Source of the DNA: Muribaculaceae bacterium Isolate-013 (NCI)
Lineage (GTDB): Bacteria > Bacteroidota > Bacteroidia > Bacteroidales > Muribaculaceae
DNA length: 35,925 nucleotides
Reading direction: 5' to 3'
Assembly (NCBI GenBank): GCA_004102785.1
Contig: SCEJ01000033.1
Span: 1 to 35,925 of the forward strand
The position numbers were made by a program, and so were the translations under genes. The notes under the pieces are model-generated. The model was not told where the DNA came from, made no database searches, and saw only the letters and a list, made by a program, of their open reading frames with translations. The first letter of the stretch is position 1. Each line of letters starts with the position of its first letter. Shown here piece after piece: positions 1 through 13,278 of the stretch.

Positions 1-102
1 ACGAACCCTTCACACCGCCTCCCGAAGAGCCGTTTTTGCCTTAGGGGGATTACTCTGATGTCATTTTTGCAAAGGCTGATGCCTCTGCACGTTGAGTAGC
101 AC
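1..102. other. Non-homologous edge sequence next to the truncated GH32 gene
   Basis: This stretch follows the stop codon of the GH32 gene. The DUF4960-like domain encoded at the end of that gene does not continue here in any frame I tried. The sequence turns AT-rich at about 97-137, unlike the GC-rich coding sequence to its right. A plus-strand frame is open from the window edge to a stop near 94, but I do not recognise its product. It could be the edge of a mobile element, the end of a neighbouring gene, or ordinary intergenic DNA. Confidence 0.35.
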
Positions 103-2700
103 TCAAAAATTATTTAGGACAATATTGGTTTTAGCCAGAAGAAGTGTGGCATGGCCTGAAAGGTAGAGCGAGCCGCCCTGGGCCAGGAATGAAGATAGCG
201 CGGATGTGATTTCAGGGGATGAAAGGGGCGGGTTGTTTCTGTCAAGTCCGCAGCGGTCGATGTGAATCCACAGAGTGCCGTAGTTGTTGAAGCTGAGGTT
301 GCCGATGTCGCCGGGAGTGAGAACCGCTCCATTGGGGCAGGCTGCCTCGAATAGCCTGAGCGCGGCCCGCTCGGAGGGGGAGAGGGCTTCAGGGTCGGCA
401 TTCTCCACAAGGATTGCCATGCGGCGCGACTGCTCTGTGAGAGGCATGGTGTGAGCCGTGGCCGAACGGTTGTGCAGGGTGTTTATCGGCCATGCGTCAG
501 CGGCTATGAAGCCGGTGTCGCCGCCGGTGGAGAACAATTCGGCCTGCACGCCGTTCTCATCGTGGGGATATATGCGCACTGAGGCGGCATAGCGTTCGTT
601 AAGGAATATGTCGGCCACGGAGCCGTCGATGAAAAGATCCACGGTCACCTCTTTGCCCGGTGCAATCAGCTCGGGGAACGATGCCGTGTACAGTCCGTTG
701 TATATCCCGTCGTTTACTATCCTGGGCATGTGCTGCAGCGACAGGGTTATGCTGCCGTCGGCCGGATTTACCGTCAGTGATGCGTGGGAGTGGTCGGGGT
801 TGGCCGGATTTTTGAGGAAGCGGATACCCCAGGGGGCGGAGCCGCACCTTGCCACGGCCTTGAACTCCATATGTCGCCCCGAGCCGATATACCGGTCGCC
901 TGAAAGGGTGAAGTTCTTTTGCGAGAATGTCTGGCGGCTGCGTATCCATTGTACCTCGTCGGCCGGTTTCTGGCATAGCTGGCGGTTCTGGTCGAGACTC
1001 CACTCGCGGGGCAGAGAATAGCAGTGGGCCCAGCCGTTGGCTTTGTTGTCGGCGCTGCCGAGTTTGTCGGGCACGATGCCGAGCGCTATCACACGCCCGT
1101 CCTTGACGGCTATCGAGGGGGAGAGCATTCCGTAGCCGTCGCGTCCGAACATATCCAGCCGGCGGGGTTCGACCGAGGCATCGTCGGTGATGAAGCGGCC
1201 TTCGTCGTTGCCCTCGTTGCCTACGCGTCCGGTGCGGTAGAGAGCCATCGTGCCGTTTTCGGTGCCCAGCGGCGTGTAGCAGAAAAGGGCTGTGCCGTCG
1301 GGCATGAATGTCAGCGACGGCATTTCGATGAAACTTCCGTCGACTTCGGCGTGTTTGCCCCAGTAGAAGTCGTCGTTCTGGTGGCGGCTCCAGGTGCCGT
1401 TGTCATAGCGGTGCAGGGTCACCAGGCCCCGGCCGTCGCGCGACGAGCCTACGATGATATAGGGCTTGCCTCCGCTGCGGAAAAAATATGGGTCGCGGAA
1501 GTCATCGCCGAGCCCGTCGGGGCGCTGGTCGATAAGGGGAGAGTTGTCTTTGGTCCATTTTACCAGAGAATTGTCGTTCGGCGTGGCGCGGAGAATGCGT
1601 GCCCGTCCGTAGTCGACTCCGGTATAGAGGATGTTGGGTCGGTTGCCGGATATCTCCGGGTCGGTGAACACGCATCCGCTCCAGCATCCTTTCATGTCGA
1701 GCGGTGTGCCGGGTGCGATTGCCGTTTGTTCCTCATACCAGCCGAAGAGATCGGTCGAGGCAAGGTGCCCCCAGTGCAGGCGTGCCATGTAGGGGCCCAG
1801 GCTGTTTTTCTGAAAGAATATATGCCAGCGGTTGTCGGTCCAAATCAGCCCGTGGGGCTCGTTTGTCCATGCTGTCGAGGGCAGGCCATGGTATTGCGGT
1901 CGCCAGCGGTCGCCTTCATAGCGTCCGGCCGGAGCCGATACAACGGGAGTGGCGTCGGCGCGCCATGTGCGGAGTTCGTCGGCCGAATAGGTGCGGTCCT
2001 CTACTTTCAGTTCGTCAATCACTCCGCCGAAAGCTGTGGTGCGGAATGCGTCGACACCGGAGCCGAACCACACTTCCCAGCCGTCCTGCGCTATGTGGAG
2101 TGTGGATTCGCCAAGGTTTATGTCACCTTTGCTGCAGTCGGCCGATGCCACTTCATTGCCGTTGTTGTAGAAGGTAAGCTGTCCGGCATCGGCGTCGATT
2201 ACGGCTGAAAGGCAGTTCCAGCGATAGCGCGGAAGTCCCGACGGTACATTTACAATAGCTTTCTCGCCTCCGATGTATATCTGGAAGCTGTATTGCCCGT
2301 CGAAACCTAAGAAGTAGCCGAAACCGGTGCGGGCTGCATCGTCAAGGCAGTTTACTATGCAGGTCTGTCCTCCGGGATTCTCGGAGTCGACTTTTACGAT
2401 AGGGTAGGAGTCAATGGCGACCCACAGCGATATGGTGGCGCGCCGCATAGGGTTCAGGCGCGGCATCACAGCGCCCACGTATGATGTGTAGCCGTCGAGA
2501 AACAGCGCGTTGCCTTTGACTCCGGGGGCGCTCTCGGCTCCGAAGTTGCCGTGCACGGTAAATGAGCGCCCGGTGATACGCTCGGATATTTCTCCCGATG
2601 AATTGATTTCCATCGGGTAATGTGCAACAACCCCTGCCGGGGCATACGCTCCCGGCAGGGTTATAAGGGCTGCTGCGATGGCAGAGGATTTAAGGTTCAC
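103..2700 (-). CDS. Secreted LamG-GH32 fructan hydrolase with a truncated DUF4960-like C terminus
   Basis: A predicted secreted protein of 865 residues that probably cleaves beta-fructosyl bonds in a fructan. The reading frame stays open to 3045, but that part overlaps the preceding gene. I chose the GTG at 2700 because a signal peptide follows immediately (residues 1-22) and the gap to the upstream stop is 11 nt. Residues about 24-245 look like a LamG/concanavalin-type module. Residues about 262-590 are a GH32 propeller with WTNEPHG (E281), FRDP (D403, transition-state stabiliser) and IEMP (E459, acid/base), followed by the usual beta-sandwich to about 755. In GH32 the first motif is normally WMNDPNG with Asp as nucleophile, so Glu at 281 is unusual. 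Residues 760-865 match the N-terminal part of the DUF4960-like domain of the neighbouring proteins, sharing the IHIDRCGL segment, then stop abruptly. Levan or inulin specificity cannot be read from the sequence. Confidence 0.85.
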   Translation of the reverse strand: MNLKSSAIAAALITLPGAYAPAGVVAHYPMEINSSGEISERITGRSFTVHGNFGAESAPGVKGNALFLDGYTSYVGAVMPRLNPMRRATISLWVAIDSYPIVKVDSENPGGQTCIVNCLDDAARTGFGYFLGFDGQYSFQIYIGGEKAIVNVPSGLPRYRWNCLSAVIDADAGQLTFYNNGNEVASADCSKGDINLGESTLHIAQDGWEVWFGSGVDAFRTTAFGGVIDELKVEDRTYSADELRTWRADATPVVSAPAGRYEGDRWRPQYHGLPSTAWTNEPHGLIWTDNRWHIFFQKNSLGPYMARLHWGHLASTDLFGWYEEQTAIAPGTPLDMKGCWSGCVFTDPEISGNRPNILYTGVDYGRARILRATPNDNSLVKWTKDNSPLIDQRPDGLGDDFRDPYFFRSGGKPYIIVGSSRDGRGLVTLHRYDNGTWSRHQNDDFYWGKHAEVDGSFIEMPSLTFMPDGTALFCYTPLGTENGTMALYRTGRVGNEGNDEGRFITDDASVEPRRLDMFGRDGYGMLSPSIAVKDGRVIALGIVPDKLGSADNKANGWAHCYSLPREWSLDQNRQLCQKPADEVQWIRSRQTFSQKNFTLSGDRYIGSGRHMEFKAVARCGSAPWGIRFLKNPANPDHSHASLTVNPADGSITLSLQHMPRIVNDGIYNGLYTASFPELIAPGKEVTVDLFIDGSVADIFLNERYAASVRIYPHDENGVQAELFSTGGDTGFIAADAWPINTLHNRSATAHTMPLTEQSRRMAILVENADPEALSPSERAALRLFEAACPNGAVLTPGDIGNLSFNNYGTLWIHIDRCGLDRNNPPLSSPEITSALSSFLAQGGSLYLSGHATLLLAKTNIVLNNF

Positions 2701-2711
2701 TATAAGATGGT

Positions 2712-4871
2712 TTAGGGAATGATTACTTTGAAGGGGGTGCCGTTGACAGTCACCACTGCTATGCCGCGGAATGCTATGGCGCGGGTGCCGTGGCCTTCGG
2801 CCGTGAAGGTGTCGGCCAGGCGCCCGTCGGAAGTGTAGACGCATATTTCCGAGCCTGCCGGCACATTGGCATAGGCGAGGCCGCCGGGGTGCGATGTCAC
2901 TTTCACATTGTCTGCGTCGGCAACATCCTCTATTCCGGTCATTTCGCCGTACCATGGCGAGAGGTAGTCGATGATGTTGCGTGTCAGTTTCTCCGTGTTG
3001 TCGAGATAGTCGTTGCGCGTGCCGTTGGCATGGAGCTGCATACACCCTATGCCGTTGGCGATAACAGTGCCGGGATGGGCTTTGGTCTTGTTGATTTCGT
3101 TGTCAAGAAGGACTTTCGGACGGTAGCTCAGCAGGTGTTCGGCCAGCGGCTCGAACTCTACGATGCCGGCAGCCTGGTGGTCCCAGTCCTGCCCCCATGT
3201 GCCGAGTATCTTTGAGTTGGTATCCCCCTCGAAGCGTGCCACGTTATCCTCTCCCGGGCTTGTGAAGTCATAGTCACTCGACTTGCTGAGGTATTTGATG
3301 CAGTTTTTGGTGAGGGTGCCGATGTTGTCGCTGTAAGGGTTTGACTCGCTGAACTGGTATGCGGCAAGGCCGTTGGCTATGATTCGTCCCTGAATCTGGG
3401 GGGTGGGGCGGAACTCGATTATACCTGCCACGGCATCGTCGACCACATGGCCCCATGTGCCGAGGATACGCACAAGGTTCTCTTCGCGGAACTGCTCCAC
3501 CTTGTTGCCTCCGGTGTAGAAACGGTTGAGGTCCCACAGGCAGTTGTGGTTTTCAACCTCGCCCTTGATGGCCGGGAATGCGTTATACCGGAAGTCGTTA
3601 TTGGGCTGATATTCCTGCATGGTCATCCCGATATAGATGTCGTGATGGGTGCGGTCGTGGAATATATCCGGATTGCTGTCTTTCCAGAGGTAATTTATCT
3701 GTGCCTGTATGTACCAGGGGGTGTCGCCGGTGTTGCCTGAGCCTGTGTCGAAGATGTTGGGAGCGTATTTTTCAGGGATACGTTCCACCGGCACTGTCAG
3801 TTGCGTGGCATATTTGGTGAGATAAAGGTTGCCTCCCTCTTTTACATAACTGCGGAGTTTTGTGATGAACTCCTCGTTGCGGAAGGCCTCGGGAAGATTG
3901 GTCCATCCCTGCGAAAGGCCCGGACGGTCGATATGAATCCACAGGCAGTCGAAGTTGTTGGGGTCGATGCGCACAAGGTCGTCCTTGGTGATTATCTCCA
4001 CTTCCTGGTCTACGTTGAAGGTCTGCGTGAATTTTATCGCCGCCTTCTCCTGCGGATATGCTATGCCGTCGATATTGAATTTGTCATTGTCGCCGATATA
4101 CATGCCGACTTTCAGTCCCTCGGTGGTTTTACCAGACAGACGCCACATGCAGTTGTGGTCGTAGCGCTGTGTGGAGGATTTGTCGGACGCGCCCTGCATG
4201 GGGAATACATCGTAGACATACCGGTCGTAGATCGGGTCTTTGTCGATGGTCCATTCGGTCGACTTCATCGTTGTGAGACCGGAGTAGATGATGTGGTTGC
4301 GGCGGTCGTGATACTGTGTCGGAGTGTCCCATCCGGGCGAGAGGGCGCGGGCGCCGATTTCGGCGTTGATACACCATATGTTGCCTTCGCTCTTGCCCTC
4401 GCCGTCGGAGAAAATGTTGGGCCGGAACTTATCGTCGAGCCTGCTGATACCGTCGGAGAAAAGGAGCTGAACGGCGAATTTCGACAGATAGAGGTTGCCG
4501 CCGTCCTGATGGAACTTGCGTATGGCGCTGATGAACTCCGGAGAGTTGTAGCCTTTGTAATTGGCCGCTGAGGAGCCTAAGCCGTTGCTGTCTATGTGAA
4601 TCCATATGCAGTCGAAATTCTCGGCGTTGATACGGTCGAGCCGCGAGGGAGTGATGAACTGGCCGTCGAGCCAGAATTCTTTTTGGAACAGTTGTGCCGC
4701 AGCCCGTTCCTGGGGCGATTCTATTGCCTCCACGGTTTCGGCGCTGATGTACATGGCCATTTTCTGATATTCGCGCCACCATGCGGCATTAGCCGCCGGC
4801 GCGAACACTAATGACAGAAATGCCGCTATTATGCAATGTGTAGGAGTCAGGAATCTCAGTTTTGTTTTCAT
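2712..4871 (-). CDS. Secreted protein with two interleaved DUF4960-like units
   Basis: A 719-residue predicted secreted protein of unknown function, probably a cell-surface or periplasmic partner in fructan capture. An ATG also exists at 4946, but the ATG at 4871 gives a clean signal peptide (residues 1-29, ending ANA). Two N-terminal halves of the DUF4960-like domain occur in tandem (about 38-248 and 254-451). Each has an IHID segment, a GGNLYL segment and a closing HNC(M/L)W motif. Two C-terminal halves follow (about 458-530 and 542-638), each with LGTWG, AGI(I/V)EF and IANG. The order is therefore N-N-C-C, not N-C-N-C. Residues 646-719 resemble a degenerate type IX secretion sorting tail ending FKVIIP. 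The upstream spacer of 155 nt carries two hairpins; the GH32 gene follows 11 nt downstream. The domain name is assigned from memory of the family. Confidence 0.85.
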   Translation of the reverse strand: MKTKLRFLTPTHCIIAAFLSLVFAPAANAAWWREYQKMAMYISAETVEAIESPQERAAAQLFQKEFWLDGQFITPSRLDRINAENFDCIWIHIDSNGLGSSAANYKGYNSPEFISAIRKFHQDGGNLYLSKFAVQLLFSDGISRLDDKFRPNIFSDGEGKSEGNIWCINAEIGARALSPGWDTPTQYHDRRNHIIYSGLTTMKSTEWTIDKDPIYDRYVYDVFPMQGASDKSSTQRYDHNCMWRLSGKTTEGLKVGMYIGDNDKFNIDGIAYPQEKAAIKFTQTFNVDQEVEIITKDDLVRIDPNNFDCLWIHIDRPGLSQGWTNLPEAFRNEEFITKLRSYVKEGGNLYLTKYATQLTVPVERIPEKYAPNIFDTGSGNTGDTPWYIQAQINYLWKDSNPDIFHDRTHHDIYIGMTMQEYQPNNDFRYNAFPAIKGEVENHNCLWDLNRFYTGGNKVEQFREENLVRILGTWGHVVDDAVAGIIEFRPTPQIQGRIIANGLAAYQFSESNPYSDNIGTLTKNCIKYLSKSSDYDFTSPGEDNVARFEGDTNSKILGTWGQDWDHQAAGIVEFEPLAEHLLSYRPKVLLDNEINKTKAHPGTVIANGIGCMQLHANGTRNDYLDNTEKLTRNIIDYLSPWYGEMTGIEDVADADNVKVTSHPGGLAYANVPAGSEICVYTSDGRLADTFTAEGHGTRAIAFRGIAVVTVNGTPFKVIIP

Positions 4872-4942
4872 GTCAGGAAGTGAAAAGTAGAAGACTGGTC
4901 TGGTGCAATGCTCAGATGCCGGAGTTTTTATCCGGAAAATTG

Positions 4943-4980
4943 ACATGGCGGCCGGCGGCTCCGTGCCGCCGCCGCCATGT
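4943..4980 (-). terminator. Intercistronic GC-rich hairpin (attenuator or terminator-like)
   Basis: ACATGGCGGC at 4943-4952 pairs with GCCGCCATGT at 4971-4980. An inner six-base stem (4954-4959 with 4965-4970) is separated by a one-base bulge, leaving a five-base loop. On the minus strand the hairpin is followed by CAATTTTCC, a weak T tract. It lies between two DUF4960-like genes, so partial termination or mRNA stabilisation is possible. Confidence 0.55.
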
Positions 4981-4990
4981 CGGGATAGAA

Positions 4991-5020
4991 CGGGCTTTCA
5001 GAGGTCAGGGTGAAAGCCCG
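4991..5020 (-). terminator. Intercistronic hairpin after the 351-residue gene
   Basis: CGGGCTTTCA at 4991-5000 is perfectly complementary to TGAAAGCCCG at 5011-5020, with a ten-base loop. It begins six bases after the stop codon of the upstream gene. No strong T tract follows on the minus strand, so it may protect or punctuate the transcript rather than end it. Confidence 0.5.
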
Positions 5021-5026
5021 GAATTA

Positions 5027-6082
5027 TTATTTTACAAGCACTTTGGCGGTCTTGGCGCCCTGGCGCACGATGTAGAGGCCGGGGGTGAGGTTGTCGGCTT
5101 TCACAGCCATGCCCTGAAGGTTGAAGTATTCGGCGGGAGCGTCGGCCGAAACCTCAGTCTCGGTGATGGCATCGGTGGTCTTTGTGAGGTAAGCCAGGGT
5201 GTTGGCGGTCAGCTTCTCGATGTTGCCTTTTGAGCCGTTGACACCTTCGCGGGGAGCCCATTCGTAGGCGGCCAGGCCGTTGGCGATGATGCGTCCCCCG
5301 TAGGAAGCCACGGGAGCGAACTCCACAATGCCGGCCACGGCATAGTCGGTGACATGGCCCCACTGGCCGAGTACTACTGCATTGAGTTCATTCTCGAATT
5401 TCTCTACGGTGTTGGCGCCGTCGGCGGTGTAGGAGTAGGCGTTGAGATCCCACATGCAGTTGTGGTCTTCGCGGTGCATCTCAGTGCCGTCGCCTGTGCC
5501 GAGGAGGCCGAAGGTGGGATGGCCGAAGTCATTGTTCACTTCGAGGCCGGAGTAGATGGCGTGGTTGGAGCGGTCGTAATACTGTGTGGGGTCGGCTTCC
5601 TTGTTTATGAAGCCGATTTCGGCGTTTACTGTCCATACATCGGTGCCTTTGCCGCCCTCGCCGTCACCATAGATGCCGGGGGCGAAGGATGCGTCGATGC
5701 GGCCCATTTTGTGAACGAGCTGGGTGGCCTGTTTGGAGAGGAAGAGGTTGCCGCCGTTCTCAACGAAAGCCTTGAGGGCGCCGATGGTGGCTTCATCGTA
5801 TTCGGCGGGGAGGTTGTTCAGGCCCAGGCCGCAACGGTCGATATGAACCCAGATCACATCTACTTTCGATGCATCGATTTTTTCGGTTTCGCCGGTGGCG
5901 ATAACAGTACCGTCGGCATAGATTGAGCGGAAGTAGTTGGCGGCGGCGTATTCCTGTGCGTTCTCGATATCGTTGATAGTTGCGGCGGGAATAAGCATAG
6001 CTACCTTCTCGTTTGCCTGTGCGTTGGCGGCAGCGGCGATAGCGGCGGCAGCGATGGCGGATTTAAGTAAAGACTTGTTCAT
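5027..6082 (-). CDS. Secreted single-domain DUF4960-like protein
   Basis: A 351-residue predicted exported protein and the simplest member of the DUF4960-like set here. The frame is open to 6154, but the ATG at 6082 starts a typical signal peptide (residues 1 to about 22, Ala-rich, ending ANA-QA) with no lipobox. The domain runs from about 27 to 302. Conserved pieces in order are VAMLIP, VHIDRCGL, GGNLFLSKQATQL, DHNCMWDLN, LGQWGHV, AGIVEF and GRIIANGLAAYEW. The last 45 residues contain YFNLQGM and end GLYIVRQGAKTAKVLVK, a pattern common in Bacteroidales C-terminal sorting-like tails. It follows the SGBP-like lipoprotein gene by 125 nt. Function is unknown; glycan binding is inferred from context. 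The alternating strands and Gly-rich turns could suit a glutamine-amidotransferase-like fold, which is speculative. Confidence 0.87.
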   Translation of the reverse strand: MNKSLLKSAIAAAAIAAAANAQANEKVAMLIPAATINDIENAQEYAAANYFRSIYADGTVIATGETEKIDASKVDVIWVHIDRCGLGLNNLPAEYDEATIGALKAFVENGGNLFLSKQATQLVHKMGRIDASFAPGIYGDGEGGKGTDVWTVNAEIGFINKEADPTQYYDRSNHAIYSGLEVNNDFGHPTFGLLGTGDGTEMHREDHNCMWDLNAYSYTADGANTVEKFENELNAVVLGQWGHVTDYAVAGIVEFAPVASYGGRIIANGLAAYEWAPREGVNGSKGNIEKLTANTLAYLTKTTDAITETEVSADAPAEYFNLQGMAVKADNLTPGLYIVRQGAKTAKVLVK

Positions 6083-6137
6083 GGTGATTTTGTGTGATGT
6101 TTTATGTAATTGAGTTTTATCAGATGGTTGTTTCCCG

Positions 6138-6175
6138 GTCTGCTTCCGGGGCACCTGGCGGCGCCCCGGGCAGAC
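6138..6175 (-). terminator. Intercistronic hairpin between the two DUF4960-like genes nearest susD
   Basis: GTCTGC at 6138-6143 and CCGGGGC at 6046+100 (6146-6152) pair with GCCCCGG at 6163-6169 and GCAGAC at 6170-6175, with a two-base TT bulge. No T tract follows on the minus strand. It may be a processing or stability element separating the susCD-SGBP part of the transcript from the downstream genes. Confidence 0.45.
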
Positions 6176-6207
6176 TGCGGAATCGGAAAGAGGGGAGGAT
6201 AGCGGTT

Positions 6208-7359
6208 TTATTTGCTGAGTTCGTCAAGGCAGTTGCGGGTCAGGCGGTCGATATTGGCCTGGTACTCGTTGCCGCCGGGCTGGCAGAATTCATAGGCTGC
6301 AAGGCCGTTGGCCACGCAGGTGAGCCGTCCTTCGGTGTCGGCGAACTGGAGGATGCCTGCCACGGCGAAGTCAACAACCTGGCCCCAGGTAGCCATTACG
6401 GTGCAGTCATTCTGCTGCTCGAACTGGAGCACGGTATTGTCGGCGACTACGGTGTAGGGGTAGGAGTTGAGGTCCCACATGCAGTTGTGGTCTTCGCGCC
6501 AGCCCGGACCGATCAGGGGGATGGTGGGATGGGTGAAGGCGTCGCAGGTGGTGAGCCCGGCGAAGAGGGGCGAGTCGTAATGGTCGTATATAAGGCCGAT
6601 GTTGCAGTTCATAGTCCAGATGTCGGTGCCTTCTCCGCCGGCGCCGGAGGCATACAGGCGGGGTGCGAACTGCTCGTCAAGGAAGCCCAGGGGCACGGTC
6701 ATCTGTGTGGCGTGCTTGGTGAGGTAAACATGGCCGCCGGCGTCGATGTAGTCGCGGAGCGCATCAAGCACTTCGGGAGCCACAAGCTTTTCGGGGAGGT
6801 TGCGCCATCCCATCGGGAGGCCTTCGCGGTCGATGTTGATCCATACCACGGGGTTGTCCTTGACTGTGATTTTGTTGACGTCGGCCGGTGTCATCACCAC
6901 TCCGTTGTCGCCGTATTCCTGAGTGAACCAGTTGGCGGCATAGATCTCATCGTCGTCGGTAAGCTCGGGCATCTCGCAGGGGAGGAGAAGGCAGGCTTTC
7001 TCGGTGGAGATGATGTCCATGTGCACTGTGATGCCTTCGGAAACGGTGCCGTCGGCATACATTATTTTCACCGTGTAGCGCACATCGGTGCCGGGAGTGG
7101 CGCGACGATCGGAGTAGGAGGTGGCGGGGCCTTCGATGGTGGCCACTACCACTCCGTCGCGCAGAATCTGCACACCCTTTATGTCTTTCCCCTGGGGGAG
7201 TGTCCAGGTGAGGCTTACAGAACGGCCGTCGACATCGGAGGTTACGTTCTCAGCCTTCGGGGCATTGGGAGTATCGGGATATTCCACATCCGAGCACGAG
7301 GTCAGACCTGCGGTGAGGCTTGCGGCTACGAAGGAAGAAAATATGATTGACTTTTTCAT
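6208..7359 (-). CDS. Surface glycan-binding-type lipoprotein: FN3 module plus DUF4960-like domain
   Basis: A 383-residue lipoprotein encoded 35 nt after susD, the usual place for a surface glycan-binding protein of a PUL. The lipobox is GLTSC with Cys22. The residues after it (SDVEY) are acidic, compatible with the Bacteroides surface-export signal. Residues about 31-115 look like a fibronectin type III or Ig-like spacer. Residues about 119-383 are a DUF4960-like domain with VWINIDREGL, GGHVYLTKHATQM, REDHNCMWDLN and VANGLAAYEF. As I recall, the levan-binding lipoprotein BT1761 of the B. thetaiotaomicron levan locus also belongs to DUF4960, which would make this its counterpart; that needs a search. 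The most likely role is to hold fructan at the outer membrane and deliver it to SusC/SusD. Confidence 0.87.
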   Translation of the reverse strand: MKKSIIFSSFVAASLTAGLTSCSDVEYPDTPNAPKAENVTSDVDGRSVSLTWTLPQGKDIKGVQILRDGVVVATIEGPATSYSDRRATPGTDVRYTVKIMYADGTVSEGITVHMDIISTEKACLLLPCEMPELTDDDEIYAANWFTQEYGDNGVVMTPADVNKITVKDNPVVWINIDREGLPMGWRNLPEKLVAPEVLDALRDYIDAGGHVYLTKHATQMTVPLGFLDEQFAPRLYASGAGGEGTDIWTMNCNIGLIYDHYDSPLFAGLTTCDAFTHPTIPLIGPGWREDHNCMWDLNSYPYTVVADNTVLQFEQQNDCTVMATWGQVVDFAVAGILQFADTEGRLTCVANGLAAYEFCQPGGNEYQANIDRLTRNCLDELSK

Positions 7360-7394: not shown

Positions 7395-9062
7395 TTATTT
7401 CTTGTCGTAGAGTCCGCCGGAGATTTCCACCTGGCTCAGAGGTATGGGGAAGTAAAGCTCATCGGCCGACATCGAGGCGGTCTCGTAGTAGGAGCGGAGG
7501 CGCTGCTCGGTGCGGTAGTATTGGTTCATGGTCTCTACGGCCACGCCCCAGCGCACGAGGTCGAACCAGCGGTGGCCTTCCATAGCCAGCTCCAGGCGGC
7601 GTTCCATGCGCACGGCGCGGCGGGCATAATCCTGGTTCCAGCCCTGCGAGGGATATTCGGCCACGTAATATGATGCGATAGAGGGGTCGCAGTCGATGGG
7701 GGTGTAGTTGGGGTCGACGGAGTTGGCGGCACGGCGGCGCACTGAGTTGATCAGGACGCGGGCGGTGTCAAGATCTTTGCCCTGCTCGATGAGAGCCTCG
7801 GCCTTGAGCAGAATGATGTCGGCGTAGCGGATGAGTTTGAAGCTCAGAGGTGACGCACCCCAGGGGAAGCCCTGGACCATGTCGGGCGACGACGGGTCGA
7901 TAAGGCCTTTCTTGCCGGAATACTCTCCGTAGACGTCGTAGGCGCGACACCATTTCATGTTGTAGATATGGCCGCGGAAGGGGAAGCCCAGACGGCCTAC
8001 GGTGAAGTCGAGGCGGGGATCGACGTTGCCATCGTAGTTCGAGGTCACTTCCACATCGTTGAAGGTGCCGTCGAGGTAGGGGAGGCCGTTGCTGTCGGTG
8101 CGGAAGGCGTTGACCAGGTTCTGCGAGGCGAGGAAGAAGTCGTCGCCGTTGCCGAAGAGGTTACCGTCGGAGTAAGTGGTGTTGAGGAGGTTGCACCAGT
8201 TGATGTTGGCGTTGTTGTTGGCGGTGGAGAACTGGATTGTCACCAGCGACTCGTACATGTTGTTGTACTCTATCTTCGACATATCCAGGAAGTTGGGATA
8301 GAGCTGGTATTTTTTGGAGTCGATAATGTATCCGGCATATTCCTCGACCTCGCTCCATGAGGAGGTGAAAGCCGATACCTTGGCGTGGATGGCCGCTGCG
8401 GCATATTTGTTGAACCGGCCTACCTGCGACTGGGTTTCGGGGAGCACCTTGTAGGCGTCGGCCAGGTCTTTTTTGATGAACGAGAAAATCTCGTCGCGTG
8501 TGTACTGGTAGGGTGAGGCGGAGTTGGCATCCTCGGTCTCGGTCCAGTAGGGAATGTTCTCGTAGATGCGGATCATGTCGAAGTAGAAGTAGGCGCGCAG
8601 GGTCTTGAGCTGGGCGATGAGGTTCTCCTTGTCGCCGATGGCAGGAGCGTCCTGCACGGCGAGGATTGCCTTGTTGCAGCGCGAGATGGCAAACACGTTG
8701 TTCTCCCACTTGTTGAATACCGAAACGTTGTCGCTCTGGATGTTCGACATCTCGAGCTGGTGGATATTCTCCTCCATCGAGGTGCCGCCGCCCCCCTTGT
8801 AGGCGTCGTCGGAGCGTACATCGAAAATCCAGTTTGTGATGGGGCCGGCGAAGGCTTCGTTGTTGCCGAAGAAATGCGACTGGAGTCCGGCGTAGGCGGC
8901 CGACATCAGTCCCTCGACAGCGGCGTCGTCCATCTGGTCGGCGGTGAACACGCCCTGCGGCTTGGTGTCGAGCATATCGTCGCACGATACGGCGCCTAAG
9001 GCCATGCAGCTTATCGAGGCTGCCAGCAGCGAGCGGTTTATGATGTTGTATATGGTTTTCAT
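7395..9062 (-). CDS. susD: SusD/RagB-family outer-membrane glycan-binding lipoprotein
   Basis: A 555-residue lipoprotein that forms the lid of the SusC transporter and binds the oligosaccharide to be imported. The signal peptide ends in the lipobox GAVSC (Cys27), followed by DDMLDTKP, a classic SusD start. The TPR-like helical part and typical C-terminal segments are present: LRYADIILLKAEALIEQG-like sequence reads LIRYADIILLKAEAL, then RRAVRMERRLELAMEGHRW, FDLVRWG and a final YFPIPLSQ. Length is normal for the family. It lies 24 nt after susC, so the pair is co-transcribed. Substrate cannot be read from this protein; fructan is inferred from the GH32 gene downstream. Confidence 0.96.
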   Translation of the reverse strand: MKTIYNIINRSLLAASISCMALGAVSCDDMLDTKPQGVFTADQMDDAAVEGLMSAAYAGLQSHFFGNNEAFAGPITNWIFDVRSDDAYKGGGGTSMEENIHQLEMSNIQSDNVSVFNKWENNVFAISRCNKAILAVQDAPAIGDKENLIAQLKTLRAYFYFDMIRIYENIPYWTETEDANSASPYQYTRDEIFSFIKKDLADAYKVLPETQSQVGRFNKYAAAAIHAKVSAFTSSWSEVEEYAGYIIDSKKYQLYPNFLDMSKIEYNNMYESLVTIQFSTANNNANINWCNLLNTTYSDGNLFGNGDDFFLASQNLVNAFRTDSNGLPYLDGTFNDVEVTSNYDGNVDPRLDFTVGRLGFPFRGHIYNMKWCRAYDVYGEYSGKKGLIDPSSPDMVQGFPWGASPLSFKLIRYADIILLKAEALIEQGKDLDTARVLINSVRRRAANSVDPNYTPIDCDPSIASYYVAEYPSQGWNQDYARRAVRMERRLELAMEGHRWFDLVRWGVAVETMNQYYRTEQRLRSYYETASMSADELYFPIPLSQVEISGGLYDKK

Positions 9063-9086: not shown

Positions 9087-12000
9087 TTAGAATGTGAGGT
9101 TGAGACCCAGCGAGAGAACGCGTGAGCGGGGGTAGGGACCATTGTCCACGCGTGCGCCGTAGGTACCCAGAGGAAGTTCGGGGTCGAGACCCGAGTACTT
9201 TGTGATGGTGAACACGTTTTCAAGCTGTGCGTAGACGTTGCAGGATGTGCCTGAGATGGGGCGGAGCACTTTTGCGGGGAGCGAGTAGGCGAGCTTGATG
9301 TATTTCATCTTAAGGTAGGAGCCGTCCTCTACATAGTAGGTCGACATGCGTGTCTCGTTGTTGTCGTCGGTGAGCGCCAGGGCGGGAATCCTTGCCGAAG
9401 TGTTGGTCTGTGTCCATGCGTTGAGCACGTCAACGGAACGGTTGGTCGACACACCGCCGTTGCCCATGAAGTTGAGCTGGCGCAGGGTGGGATTGTAGAT
9501 GTCGAAGCCGAAGTCGCCGCAGAAGAAGGCGCTGAGGGTGAAGTCGCGGTATTTGAAGTCGAGGTTCAGACCCAGCGAGAAGTCGGGGTTGGGGTCGCCG
9601 ATGATGCAGCGGTCGTTCTCGTTGATTACGCCGTTGCCGTCGAGGTCGCGGAATTTCATGCGGCCGGGAGCGGCACCGGTCTGCTGGGCATGGTTGGCCA
9701 CTTCGTCGGGGGTCTGGAATATGCCGTCGTAAACATAGCCGTAGTAAACACCCATGGGCTGGTCTTTGATAAGACGGATGTCGCCGCCGATAGTGTTGAC
9801 CATGTTGTTGAGCTTGACGAGCTTGTTCTTGTAGCGCGAGATGTTGAAGTTACCGCTCCAGGAGAAGTCGCCATACTTGGGCGAGATGTAGTTGAGCTGG
9901 AGTTCGAAACCGTTGTTGCTCATGTCGCCGGTGTTCATGAACATCACCGCGTTCTCGCCGGCCACTGCCAGCACTGGGGGCTGGGTGAGCATGTCGGTGG
10001 TTTTCTTGATGTAGTAGTCGAACGAGAGGCTCAGCGAGTTGTTGAGGAATCCGAAGTCTACACCGATGTTGGTCTGGGTTGTGGTTTCCCATTTGAGGTT
10101 GGGGTTACCGGTGCGGTCCACGACTACTCCGGGGATATATCCGTTTCCGGTGCCGTTGAGGTCGTAGGCGCCGTTGCCGAGGTCATATTTGTAGGTGGTG
10201 TAGGCGGCGTAGAGGTTGTCGATTGCAGAGTTGCCGTTCTGACCCCATGCGAAGCGCACTTTCAGGTCGTTGAGCACGTTGTTGGTGGGGAAGAATGTTT
10301 CCTGGGTGGGGCGCCATGCCAGGGTGAATGCGGGGAATACACCGGAGTTGTGGCGCTTGTCGAGGCGCGAGGAGGCGTCGCGGCGCAGAGTGAACGATGC
10401 CAGGTAGCGGTCGGCATAGTTGTAGTCGGCTTTGCCGAACACCGAGAAGAGTGCCCACTGGCTTTTGCCGCCGCCGTTTGTCTGGGTGCCTTCGCCGGAG
10501 CCGATCTGCATGTAGTCGTTATCCTCGAAGGCATAGTCCTTGCGGGCTGCGGAGAGATCCTCGAAGGTGTATTTTATGGCCTCGACACCGAAGAGCACGT
10601 TGATGTGGTGCTTTTCGTTGAAGGTCTTCACATAGTTGGCGGTGTTGGTCCAGGTCCAGGTGTCGCCCTGGCCGTATGCGCGCGACATCTCGTTGACGTC
10701 GGAAGCCACGGTTTTGCGCACCAGGTTCTTGTTGAAGTACTGTATGTGCTCCAGACCGAAGTTTGTCTTGAGGGTGAGGCCGTCGACGGGCATCACGGCC
10801 AGGAACATGTTGCCGAAGATACGCCAGGAGTTGTTCTCGTTGTCGCGGCCGTTGTAGAGAGTCTGCACGGGGTTGGCGATATCGGATGCGATGAGATCCA
10901 TCGGGCGTGCCCAGTCGCCGTCAAGGCCTTTGACCGGGAGTGCCGGGTGCTGGCGCATCGCGGTGAAGGGGATGCCACGGTCGTCGCCGGTGCCGAAGCC
11001 TCGGTCCGACCAGTTGGCTACCATGAGGTTTTCGCCTACCTGGAAATATTTGCTGATATTGTAGGTGGAGTTTACGCGGGCCGAATAGCGGCGGTAGAAG
11101 GTTTCACGCATCACACCGTCCTGGTTGATATAGTTGGCCGAGAACATGAATGAGCCGCGGTCGGAGGAGTTGCTTACCGAAGCGGTGAGGTTGTTAGTCC
11201 ATGCCGAGCGGTAAACGGCGTCCTGCCAGTCGGTGTCGGTGGTGCGGAAGTTGGGGTTGCCGTCGATGTATTCCACGAGCTGGGGTGTTGCGCCGTTGCC
11301 GTAGAGGGGATGCGACGGTGTGACATGCGAGTTGGCGGCGGCGGTCCAGTAGGCCTGGCCCCACTGTTCGGCGTTGAGCATGTCGTAGGTGCGGCCCACG
11401 AACTGCACCGATGCCGAATAGTTTACATTGACCTGGAGCTTGTCGCCCTTGCCCTGGCGTGTGGTGATTATGATAACGCCGTTTGCGGCACGCGAGCCGT
11501 AGATTGACGCTGATGCGGCATCCTTGAGCACCTGCATTGACTCGATGTCGGAGGGGTTGATCGAGGTAATGTTGTCGGTGGCGATGCCGTCGACAATATA
11601 AAGCGGTGCGTTGGAGTTGACGGTCGACATACCGCGCACGCGGATTTCACCGCCGCCGCCGGGAGCGGCATTCGTAGTGACGGAAACACCGGGCATACGT
11701 CCCTGCATGGAGTTGATTATCGAACCGGCGTTTTCTGAAATCGGCTGTTTCATATCCATTACTGCCACGGCTCCGGTGAGGTCGGCCTTTCGCTGGGTGG
11801 TATAGCCGGTGACTACGATTTCCTGGAGATTCAGTGCGTCGTCCTGGAGCACTACCTTCATCTCGGGGGTGGCCTCAACCACCTGTCGCATGTAGCCGAT
11901 GTAGGAGAAGGACAGGCGGGTGCCTTTCGGTACGGTGATGGTGAAATTACCGTCGATGTCGGTGGTTACACCTTTGGTGGGGTCGCCTGCAGGCGCGACT

Positions 12001-12125
12001 GTGGCCCCGATCAGAGGTTCGTCATCATTCAGGCCCCACACTGAGCCGTGAACGGTGATCGACTGTGCGGTTGCTGTCACCATTGCCATTATGGTCAGCA
12101 GCGCACTGAGGATTAGTTTTTTCAT
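9087..12125 (-). CDS. susC: SusC/RagA-family TonB-dependent outer-membrane transporter
   Basis: A 1012-residue TonB-dependent transporter that imports oligosaccharides across the outer membrane. The frame extends to 12161, but the ATG at 12125 (MKKLILSALL) begins the signal peptide and lies just after the promoter. After the signal peptide comes a carboxypeptidase-D-like beta-sandwich (about 22-105: GSVWGLNDDEPLIGATV, DGNFTITVP). Next are the TonB-box-like EIVVTGY and the plug domain (PGVSV, IRVRGMSTVN, PLYIVDGI, LKDAASASIYGSRAANGVIIITT). The remainder is the beta-barrel, ending in an aromatic residue (LGLNLTF) as usual for outer-membrane proteins. It is the first gene of the PUL transcript. 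No N-terminal signalling extension is seen, so it is not of the sigma/anti-sigma transducing type. Confidence 0.97.
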   Translation of the reverse strand: MKKLILSALLTIMAMVTATAQSITVHGSVWGLNDDEPLIGATVAPAGDPTKGVTTDIDGNFTITVPKGTRLSFSYIGYMRQVVEATPEMKVVLQDDALNLQEIVVTGYTTQRKADLTGAVAVMDMKQPISENAGSIINSMQGRMPGVSVTTNAAPGGGGEIRVRGMSTVNSNAPLYIVDGIATDNITSINPSDIESMQVLKDAASASIYGSRAANGVIIITTRQGKGDKLQVNVNYSASVQFVGRTYDMLNAEQWGQAYWTAAANSHVTPSHPLYGNGATPQLVEYIDGNPNFRTTDTDWQDAVYRSAWTNNLTASVSNSSDRGSFMFSANYINQDGVMRETFYRRYSARVNSTYNISKYFQVGENLMVANWSDRGFGTGDDRGIPFTAMRQHPALPVKGLDGDWARPMDLIASDIANPVQTLYNGRDNENNSWRIFGNMFLAVMPVDGLTLKTNFGLEHIQYFNKNLVRKTVASDVNEMSRAYGQGDTWTWTNTANYVKTFNEKHHINVLFGVEAIKYTFEDLSAARKDYAFEDNDYMQIGSGEGTQTNGGGKSQWALFSVFGKADYNYADRYLASFTLRRDASSRLDKRHNSGVFPAFTLAWRPTQETFFPTNNVLNDLKVRFAWGQNGNSAIDNLYAAYTTYKYDLGNGAYDLNGTGNGYIPGVVVDRTGNPNLKWETTTQTNIGVDFGFLNNSLSLSFDYYIKKTTDMLTQPPVLAVAGENAVMFMNTGDMSNNGFELQLNYISPKYGDFSWSGNFNISRYKNKLVKLNNMVNTIGGDIRLIKDQPMGVYYGYVYDGIFQTPDEVANHAQQTGAAPGRMKFRDLDGNGVINENDRCIIGDPNPDFSLGLNLDFKYRDFTLSAFFCGDFGFDIYNPTLRQLNFMGNGGVSTNRSVDVLNAWTQTNTSARIPALALTDDNNETRMSTYYVEDGSYLKMKYIKLAYSLPAKVLRPISGTSCNVYAQLENVFTITKYSGLDPELPLGTYGARVDNGPYPRSRVLSLGLNLTF

Positions 12126-12158
12126 AATGTTGTTAAGGTTAGTGTTGTAAAACTGGCG

Positions 12159-12166
12159 CAAAGATA
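12159..12166 (-). promoter_or_regulatory. Predicted -7 box for the susC operon
   Basis: The minus strand reads TATCTTTG, an exact match to the Bacteroidetes -7 consensus TAnnTTTG, 33 nt upstream of the susC ATG at 12125. I see no TTTG at the expected -33 position, so the promoter may need an activator, as is common for PULs. Confidence 0.65.
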
Positions 12167-12371: not shown

Positions 12372-13244
12372 TCAGTCAATCTTGACCACGAGGAAATTCG
12401 ATTTCTCCCAAAATGCGCCGGGGTTGGTGATGCGCAGAGTGTAGGAGTCGTTGGCGTCTTTTTCAAGGGTGTACGACGAGGCCGGCTGGTTGGTCATCAC
12501 TTTCGCCTTCTTGGAGTAGAGGGGGATGACGGTGAGTTTGGTCTTGTCGCCTTTGATGAAGTTGGCAGTCGACTGGTCGCCGGGTAGCACCTTGGTTTTG
12601 CGGAGGAAGCCACTCTCGATTATATTTTTGGTCTTGAGTTCCTTTCCGGTGCCGATTACATAGTAGCATGTGTTGAGTTCGGCATTGAGCTGCTCAGCGC
12701 GGGCCTGTGCCTGCGAGCGTTCTTCCGATACTGTGGCAACGGTGGTATTGAGCGAGTCGACCGAAGAGTTGAGCGCGTCAATCTTGATGTTGGCGGCAGC
12801 CAGTTCGTTGCGCAGCGACTGGATGGTGCCTTCCTGCTCGGCGATTGATTTCTTCAGGGTCTCGATTGAGCGCTGGAGGGTCTGGTTGTTGGAGTTAGAT
12901 GCCGCAAGACGTTTCTCAAGGTCGGCCACACGGTCGCGGTTTTTCTGCAGTTGCTGCTGTATGGCCATGATGTCGTTGCGAATCTGCTGGCGTTTGTTCT
13001 GTGCCTCGGGGCCCATGCCGGTGGTGGCATCGAGAAGATTCTCCATCTGTTTGATCTGAGAGAGACCTTCCGACACGTCGTTCATAAGCATCAGCAGAGA
13101 ATCCTGGTTTGCCAGGGCCACGCGCAGTGAGTCGGATGTAGTGGGAGTGTAGGCGCCGTCGCCCTCGTTCTGTGTCTTATCGGAGTGGCAGGCCGAGGCC
13201 ATTATTGCCAGGGCGGTCAGAGTGATACCTGCGATTTTTTTCAT
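12372..13244 (-). CDS. Coiled-coil lipoprotein of unknown function
   Basis: A 290-residue predicted lipoprotein. The ATG at 13244 is preferred over the TTG two codons upstream because it begins a lysine-rich signal peptide ending in the lipobox ASAC. The centre (about 40-195) is a long heptad-like region rich in Gln, Leu, Asn and Ser (QLQKNRDRVADLEKRLAAS, IKIDALNSSVDSLNTTV), predicted to form a coiled coil. The C-terminal 95 residues start with CYYVIGTGKEL and look like a small beta domain (LTVIPLYSKKAKV, YTLRITNP, FLVVKID). Similar Bacteroidales proteins have, as I recall, been labelled Cbp1-like adhesins, but I would not rely on that name. It follows rsmI by 34 nt and ends at a strong hairpin. 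A role in the periplasm or envelope is inferred only from the lipoprotein signal. Confidence 0.85.
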   Translation of the reverse strand: MKKIAGITLTALAIMASACHSDKTQNEGDGAYTPTTSDSLRVALANQDSLLMLMNDVSEGLSQIKQMENLLDATTGMGPEAQNKRQQIRNDIMAIQQQLQKNRDRVADLEKRLAASNSNNQTLQRSIETLKKSIAEQEGTIQSLRNELAAANIKIDALNSSVDSLNTTVATVSEERSQAQARAEQLNAELNTCYYVIGTGKELKTKNIIESGFLRKTKVLPGDQSTANFIKGDKTKLTVIPLYSKKAKVMTNQPASSYTLEKDANDSYTLRITNPGAFWEKSNFLVVKID

Positions 13245-13278
13245 AATCAAATAGTTATAAGCGTTTGTGATTAGTTTC

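Follow-up and report, generated by a model that had tools for sequence, protein, structure and literature searches.

Four consecutive genes of Muribaculaceae bacterium Isolate-013 (NCI) carry copies of one domain, DUF4960 (PF16324), in four different forms, directly after a SusC/SusD pair in the 35,925-bp stretch analyzed here (hereafter, the window; GenBank assembly GCA_004102785.1, contig SCEJ01000033.1). The window starts at base 1 of its contig (C218) in a draft genome of 3.3 Mb and 385 contigs. On the minus strand, the gene order is a SusC-like TonB-dependent transporter (9087–12161; TIGR04056, 872 bits), a SusD-like lipoprotein (7395–9062; Pfam SusD_RagB, 6.3e-32), a DUF4960 lipoprotein (LIPO; 6208–7359) that is the counterpart of BT1761 of Bacteroides thetaiotaomicron, and three DUF4960 proteins with predicted signal peptides: one with a single domain (FREE; 5027–6082), one with a nested double domain (NEST; 2712–4871), and one fused to glycoside hydrolase family 32 (GH32; 103–2700). 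Taken as a whole, these features probably represent a fructan polysaccharide-utilization locus (PUL) of a Muribaculaceae-type gut bacterium with an enlarged fructan-capture apparatus, in which one anchored binder is accompanied by several separately exported binders and enzymes. If so, gut bacteria have expanded a single fructan-binding domain into a set of anchored, free, nested, and enzyme-fused proteins.

The initial annotation had assigned one domain to all four genes, and its open reading frames (ORFs) were confirmed as real at the same coordinates. Using the PF16324 hidden Markov model (HMM; curated Pfam cut-off, 29.2 bits), matches above the cut-off were found in LIPO (50.5 bits), FREE (76.1 bits; aa 33–299, about 5186–5986), and NEST (113.4 bits, two stretches). 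The Pfam scan made no call for the truncated copy in the GH32 gene, which scored 68 bits with a purpose-built DUF4960 HMM (model positions 6–97 of 259), and blastp agreed. The predicted DUF4960 fold matches that of the C-terminal domain of BT1761, with which the Bacteroides levan utilisome binds levan. The W(I/V)(H/N)ID and GGxx(Y/F)L segments and the HNC(M/L)W motif were present in the window copies as first described. Domain identity, nesting, and motif counts are firm. PF16324 matches were found in 23 of 149 genomes drawn from the family.

NEST had been described as a double unit, a part of the initial annotation that needed revision. Compared to FREE using blastp, three segments of NEST matched in turn (aa 36–246 to FREE 25–214; aa 254–533 to FREE 26–304; aa 523–653 to FREE 208–315), showing that the second domain is complete and lies inside the first, directly after HNCMW. 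Accordingly placed by alignment and HMM, the N-terminal part of the outer domain (4134–4772; aa 34–246) ends just past HNCMW, the complete inner domain (3273–4112; aa 254–533) has its own HNCLW, and the C-terminal part of the outer domain (2958–3266; aa 536–638) is followed by a C-terminal tail (2712–2939; recognized with a tail profile; PF19910 E 7e-4, below cut-off). HMM stretches in NEST cover about model positions 2–176, 4–259, and 175–259, and the same layout exists in three genomes of the same genus (G022, G097, and G148). A tandem arrangement was rejected because four proteins share an interruption near model position 176 that is filled by a complete domain; true DUF4960 tandems do occur (e.g., L063, L084, L096, L105, L106, L112, L114, L115, and L036). 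The nested layout was found in 7 of 167 DUF4960 ORFs, corresponding to 4 of 138 distinct sequences because three loci (L049–L051) are the same places as nested loci already counted, reached via another collection. No other protein among the 167 ORFs has a complete domain between two domain parts. To our knowledge, a domain nested inside its own homologue is a rare architecture.

A genus-wide search recovered full-length NEST from 4 of 14 genomes. In a quick tree of 148 domains, the inner copies formed a clade of four and the outer copies another clade of four; therefore, nesting probably arose once. The inner clade received 100/100 support in a more careful tree of 62 thinned rows, in which the window inner domain sits on a long branch (this tree excludes long-branch rows, BT1761-like rows, the L016/L018/L022/L023/L025/L026 group, L110, and 5/6 of the lipoprotein rows). 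The quick tree separates inner from outer copies, but the approximately unbiased (AU) test on the 62-row tree does not reject one clade of the eight (p 0.234); the inner domain may derive from duplication of the outer domain or from insertion of a FREE-like copy. Based on the alignment with BT1761, the insertion in NEST falls in the loop bearing W359.

Anchoring differs among the copies, as the initial annotation had suspected when it proposed different surface locations. LIPO is predicted to be membrane-anchored (lipobox LTSC) and is the only copy that resembles BT1761 in being a signal peptidase II lipoprotein encoded beside SusC/SusD and GH32; its DUF4960 (aa 132–380, about 6220–6966) follows a weak FN3-like stretch (aa 34–108; phmmer E 6e-4 to 8e-4). 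The other copies have a plain predicted signal peptide and, where complete, a C-terminal tail (52 residues in FREE), and no lipobox was found in FREE or NEST by a simple pattern. We surveyed 121 DUF4960 proteins from 74 genome-contig loci and the window, defining a tail as at least 35 residues past the last DUF4960 and a lipobox by the same simple pattern. When DUF4960 starts at residue 110 or later (69 of 121), 58 proteins have a lipobox, 11 lack one, and none has a tail. When it starts before residue 110 (40 of 121), 36 have a tail without a lipobox, two have both, and two neither (the pieces in L119); in three of these 40 proteins, about 285 residues follow the domain rather than a short tail. 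The remaining 12 proteins are fused to GH32, and 11 of them have a tail, the exception being the interrupted copy of the window. Other proteins of the genus end in sequences that a profile of the NEST tail recognizes. A search of the genome confined to the following type IX components recovered SprA, PorV, two C25 peptidases, and 14 Por tail matches, four of them over the cut-off. Export of FREE and NEST by type IX secretion is therefore a supported prediction.

The short GH32-fused copy, which the initial annotation took as it stands, is not a natural short form. The first 127 bases of the window (1–127) are a repeat with an identical copy at the end of contig C348, and the GH32 ORF runs into this repeat for its last seven sense codons and its stop. 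On contig C284, the opening ~350 bases finish with the terminal sequence of the repeat in inverted orientation; beyond it, C284 encodes the missing portion of the DUF4960, including HNCMW, then a C-terminal tail and another GH32 (794 aa), and natural truncation was rejected on this basis. The repeat occurs at window 1–127, at the C348 end (L159), and at L158 1–353. The same 9 bases, GGCTAAAAC, are present at both breaks beside the inverted ends CAATATTGTCC, as after transposition, and are a candidate target duplication. The repeat is probably a mobile element, and the GH32 fusion has likely been interrupted by its insertion, with the caveat of a draft assembly. The end of the repeat had no match in a comparison with plasmids. 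The gene is whole in G022, G097, and G148 (1144, 1136, and 1155 aa). In the window, interruption would leave the GH32 part open and remove most of the binding domain and the tail. Split genes were also observed elsewhere: the second GH32 of L037 (3557–5968; G081) exists as two ORF pieces (579 and 127 aa), and in L119 (13277–15024) a DUF4960 is split between frames, with another incomplete copy after it where the contig ends.

The GH32 gene encodes a LamG-like region (aa 70–243), the N- and C-terminal GH32 domains (Pfam, 152.7 and 36.5 bits), which place it in the family, and the first third of a DUF4960. The usual GH32 motif is WMNDPNG, and its Asp is the catalytic nucleophile. The window protein has WTNEPHGL instead (about 1850–1869; WTNExHG also at L158 2135–2154), with FRDP and the Glu of EMP kept. 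Among the 38 hits to solved structures, all five alignments shown pair the Glu of WTNEPHGL with the Asp of NDPNG. Since WTNEPHGL stands where solved GH32 proteins read xNDPNG, Glu replaces the nucleophilic Asp. From 161 GH32 ORFs in the loci (28 short or without the motif), we used 116 distinct rows, comprising 72 with Glu and 44 with Asp; the Glu-type rows form one clade (support 100) with one state change in a quick tree with the motif columns kept in. With Glu at the nucleophile position throughout, this GH32 clade departs from the standard family signature.

Glu-type GH32 was found in 61 of 74 HNC loci, a proportion that is not an unbiased rate because these loci were picked with NEST-derived patterns (EDHNCMW and another). 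To reduce this bias, we compared exact codon patterns across 344 genomes of the order. The HNC pattern was present in four genomes, all of which also have WTNExHG, and the GH32 pattern in 17, eight of which read WTNExHG. Seven of these eight encode a Glu-type GH32 and a DUF4960 in the same stretch, whereas neither was seen in the stretch from the eighth (G317); the other nine genomes, along with a further site in G262, were discarded as chance matches, with no GH32 and no DUF4960 there. The HNC motif is present in five of the seven loci (ENHNCII in L170), reads HNS in L172, and is missing in L169; thus, Glu-type GH32 goes with DUF4960 generally, and mostly but not solely with the HNC type. Larger fusions were also observed, including a 1898-aa protein with one DUF4960 before GH32 and three after (L036, 5711–11407; G140), and a 1708-aa protein with GH32 followed by three DUF4960 copies (L106, 2516–7642).

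Across 148 domain rows, the His, Asn, and Cys of HNC are kept in 135, 142, and 135 rows, and the motif is a marker of a large DUF4960 subfamily. HNC-type loci also occur in Prevotella and Bacteroides xylanisolvens records. In B. xylanisolvens XB1A (L104, 8858–10810), a 650-aa protein ends in an HNC-type DUF4960 and begins with ~400 residues that resemble a beta-helix by eye, with SusC/SusD-like and Asp-type GH32 genes nearby. In BT1761, the counterpart of the HNC segment by alignment contains T350 and Q352 and probably touches levan, and a binding role is therefore likelier than catalysis. In FREE, the BT1761 contacts T350, Q352, W297, and W359 align with Asn208, Met210, Tyr138, and Ala215, i.e., with none of the four retained.

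Based on these observations, each DUF4960 would form a single cleft for fructan, with the HNC(M/L)W segment as part of it. LIPO may sit on the rim of SusC, and the tailed proteins would be exported through the type IX system and remain at or close to the cell surface, where fructan chains could be gripped at several points while GH32 cuts. In NEST, the second domain would take the place of the loop that bears the levan-stacking W359 in BT1761, and two side-by-side clefts may clamp one chain. Only tentatively, and with more doubt than confidence, we suggest that Bacteroidales have a second way of capturing fructan, distinct in chemistry and architecture, which combines the Glu GH32 clade, mostly HNC-type DUF4960 binders whose extra copies are exported by type IX secretion, and a two-cleft, self-nested clamp.

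Several points weigh against this capture apparatus, which the initial annotation had proposed and which our results support in part. Both tails of the window are unmatched by the curated type IX sorting models (TIGR04183/PF18962), and tails of relatives reached E 0.03–0.14 in three of eight cases, below the cut-off. The AlphaFold2 model of NEST, in which the clamp geometry would be seen, is poor (four alignment rows; predicted local distance difference test [pLDDT] 48.8). Fructan binding by the window copies is probable by homology, and the two key tryptophans of BT1761 are changed in FREE (W359 to Ala, W297 to Tyr); because they are not kept, affinity or specificity may differ. In addition, 13 of the 74 HNC loci lack a Glu-type GH32 in the stretch covered, some of these being short contigs. 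The loss of W359 also fits the idea that the HNC subfamily binds a fructan other than levan or a modified glycan (inulin-type, graminan, or decorated), with the Glu-type GH32 matched to the same target. The frequent pairing of HNC with Glu-type GH32 and the Prevotella and B. xylanisolvens loci point the same way, as do six BT1761-like loci (L005–L010), all of which lack HNC and, within the short stretch covered, show no Glu-type motif (the single GH32 found there fits neither version of the motif pattern). This pairing is not universal, as the 13 loci, L169, and L172 show, and Lev-Lev5, a DUF4960 clone that need not be of the HNC type, prefers levan to inulin (PMC10076258). We consider a non-levan target unlikely.

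A catalytic or covalent role for HNC, left open by the initial annotation on account of the conserved His and Cys, would make the free DUF4960 proteins enzymes on a glutamine-amidotransferase/ThuA scaffold that process fructans or their decorations. The strong conservation of the three residues and a fold common to enzymes are in its favor. However, in the alignment HNC falls on a segment where a binding protein probably contacts its ligand, the conserved Cys may have a structural role only, and at the usual nucleophile position of this fold 126 of 148 rows have Ser/Thr and two have Cys. This role is very improbable. Slightly more improbable still is the proposal that the additional copies do no separate binding of their own and are either weakly selected, redundant paralogues or structural parts of the utilisome. 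The long branch of the window inner domain and the broken GH32 fusion favor this proposal, but four genomes share the order of the genes and the nesting, at 45–49% identity to the window NEST and with HNC in both domains. The enlarged capture apparatus is the explanation that we retain.

Just upstream of the SusC gene, 12372–13250 encodes a coiled-coil protein that matches NCBIfam NF052320 (Cbp1 family collagen-binding adhesin; 246 bits, cut-off 90).

Compared to known systems, DUF4960 shares the ThuA-like/class I glutamine amidotransferase fold, but its presumed nucleophile position is not Cys. The BT1760-type endo-levanase is likewise a GH32 partner of a DUF4960 binder, whereas the window GH32 carries a LamG-like domain at its N-terminus and reads WTNEPHG instead of the usual WMNDPNG. 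BT1761 (SGBPlev) of the B. thetaiotaomicron levan utilisome (PDB 8a9y, 8aa0, 8aa2) shares the DUF4960 fold and is a lipoprotein in a SusC/SusD locus with GH32; it has two Ig-like domains and a single DUF4960 without HNC, whereas the window has the HNC type, an FN3-like stretch, and three further DUF4960 genes. Lev-Lev5, a single metagenomic clone with nearest relatives in Prevotella, contains DUF4960 as in the window, and its levan binding was measured; the same source counted DUF4960 co-occurring with GH32 in 5 of 103 Pfam architectures, the pairing seen in our fourth gene, and the parts available to us report no array, nested DUF4960, secretion tail, or Glu-type motif (PMC10076258). Likewise, the array, the nesting, and the Glu motif were not found in the literature on DUF4960, levan/inulin PULs, GH32 motifs, nested domains, and Muribaculaceae fructan use or type IX secretion, as far as those sources could be viewed. 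The core of SusC, SusD, DUF4960 lipoprotein, and GH32 is the known levan-utilisome set; as far as the literature searched shows, the conserved array of extra exported copies, the self-nested copy, and the Glu-type GH32 clade are new additions to it.

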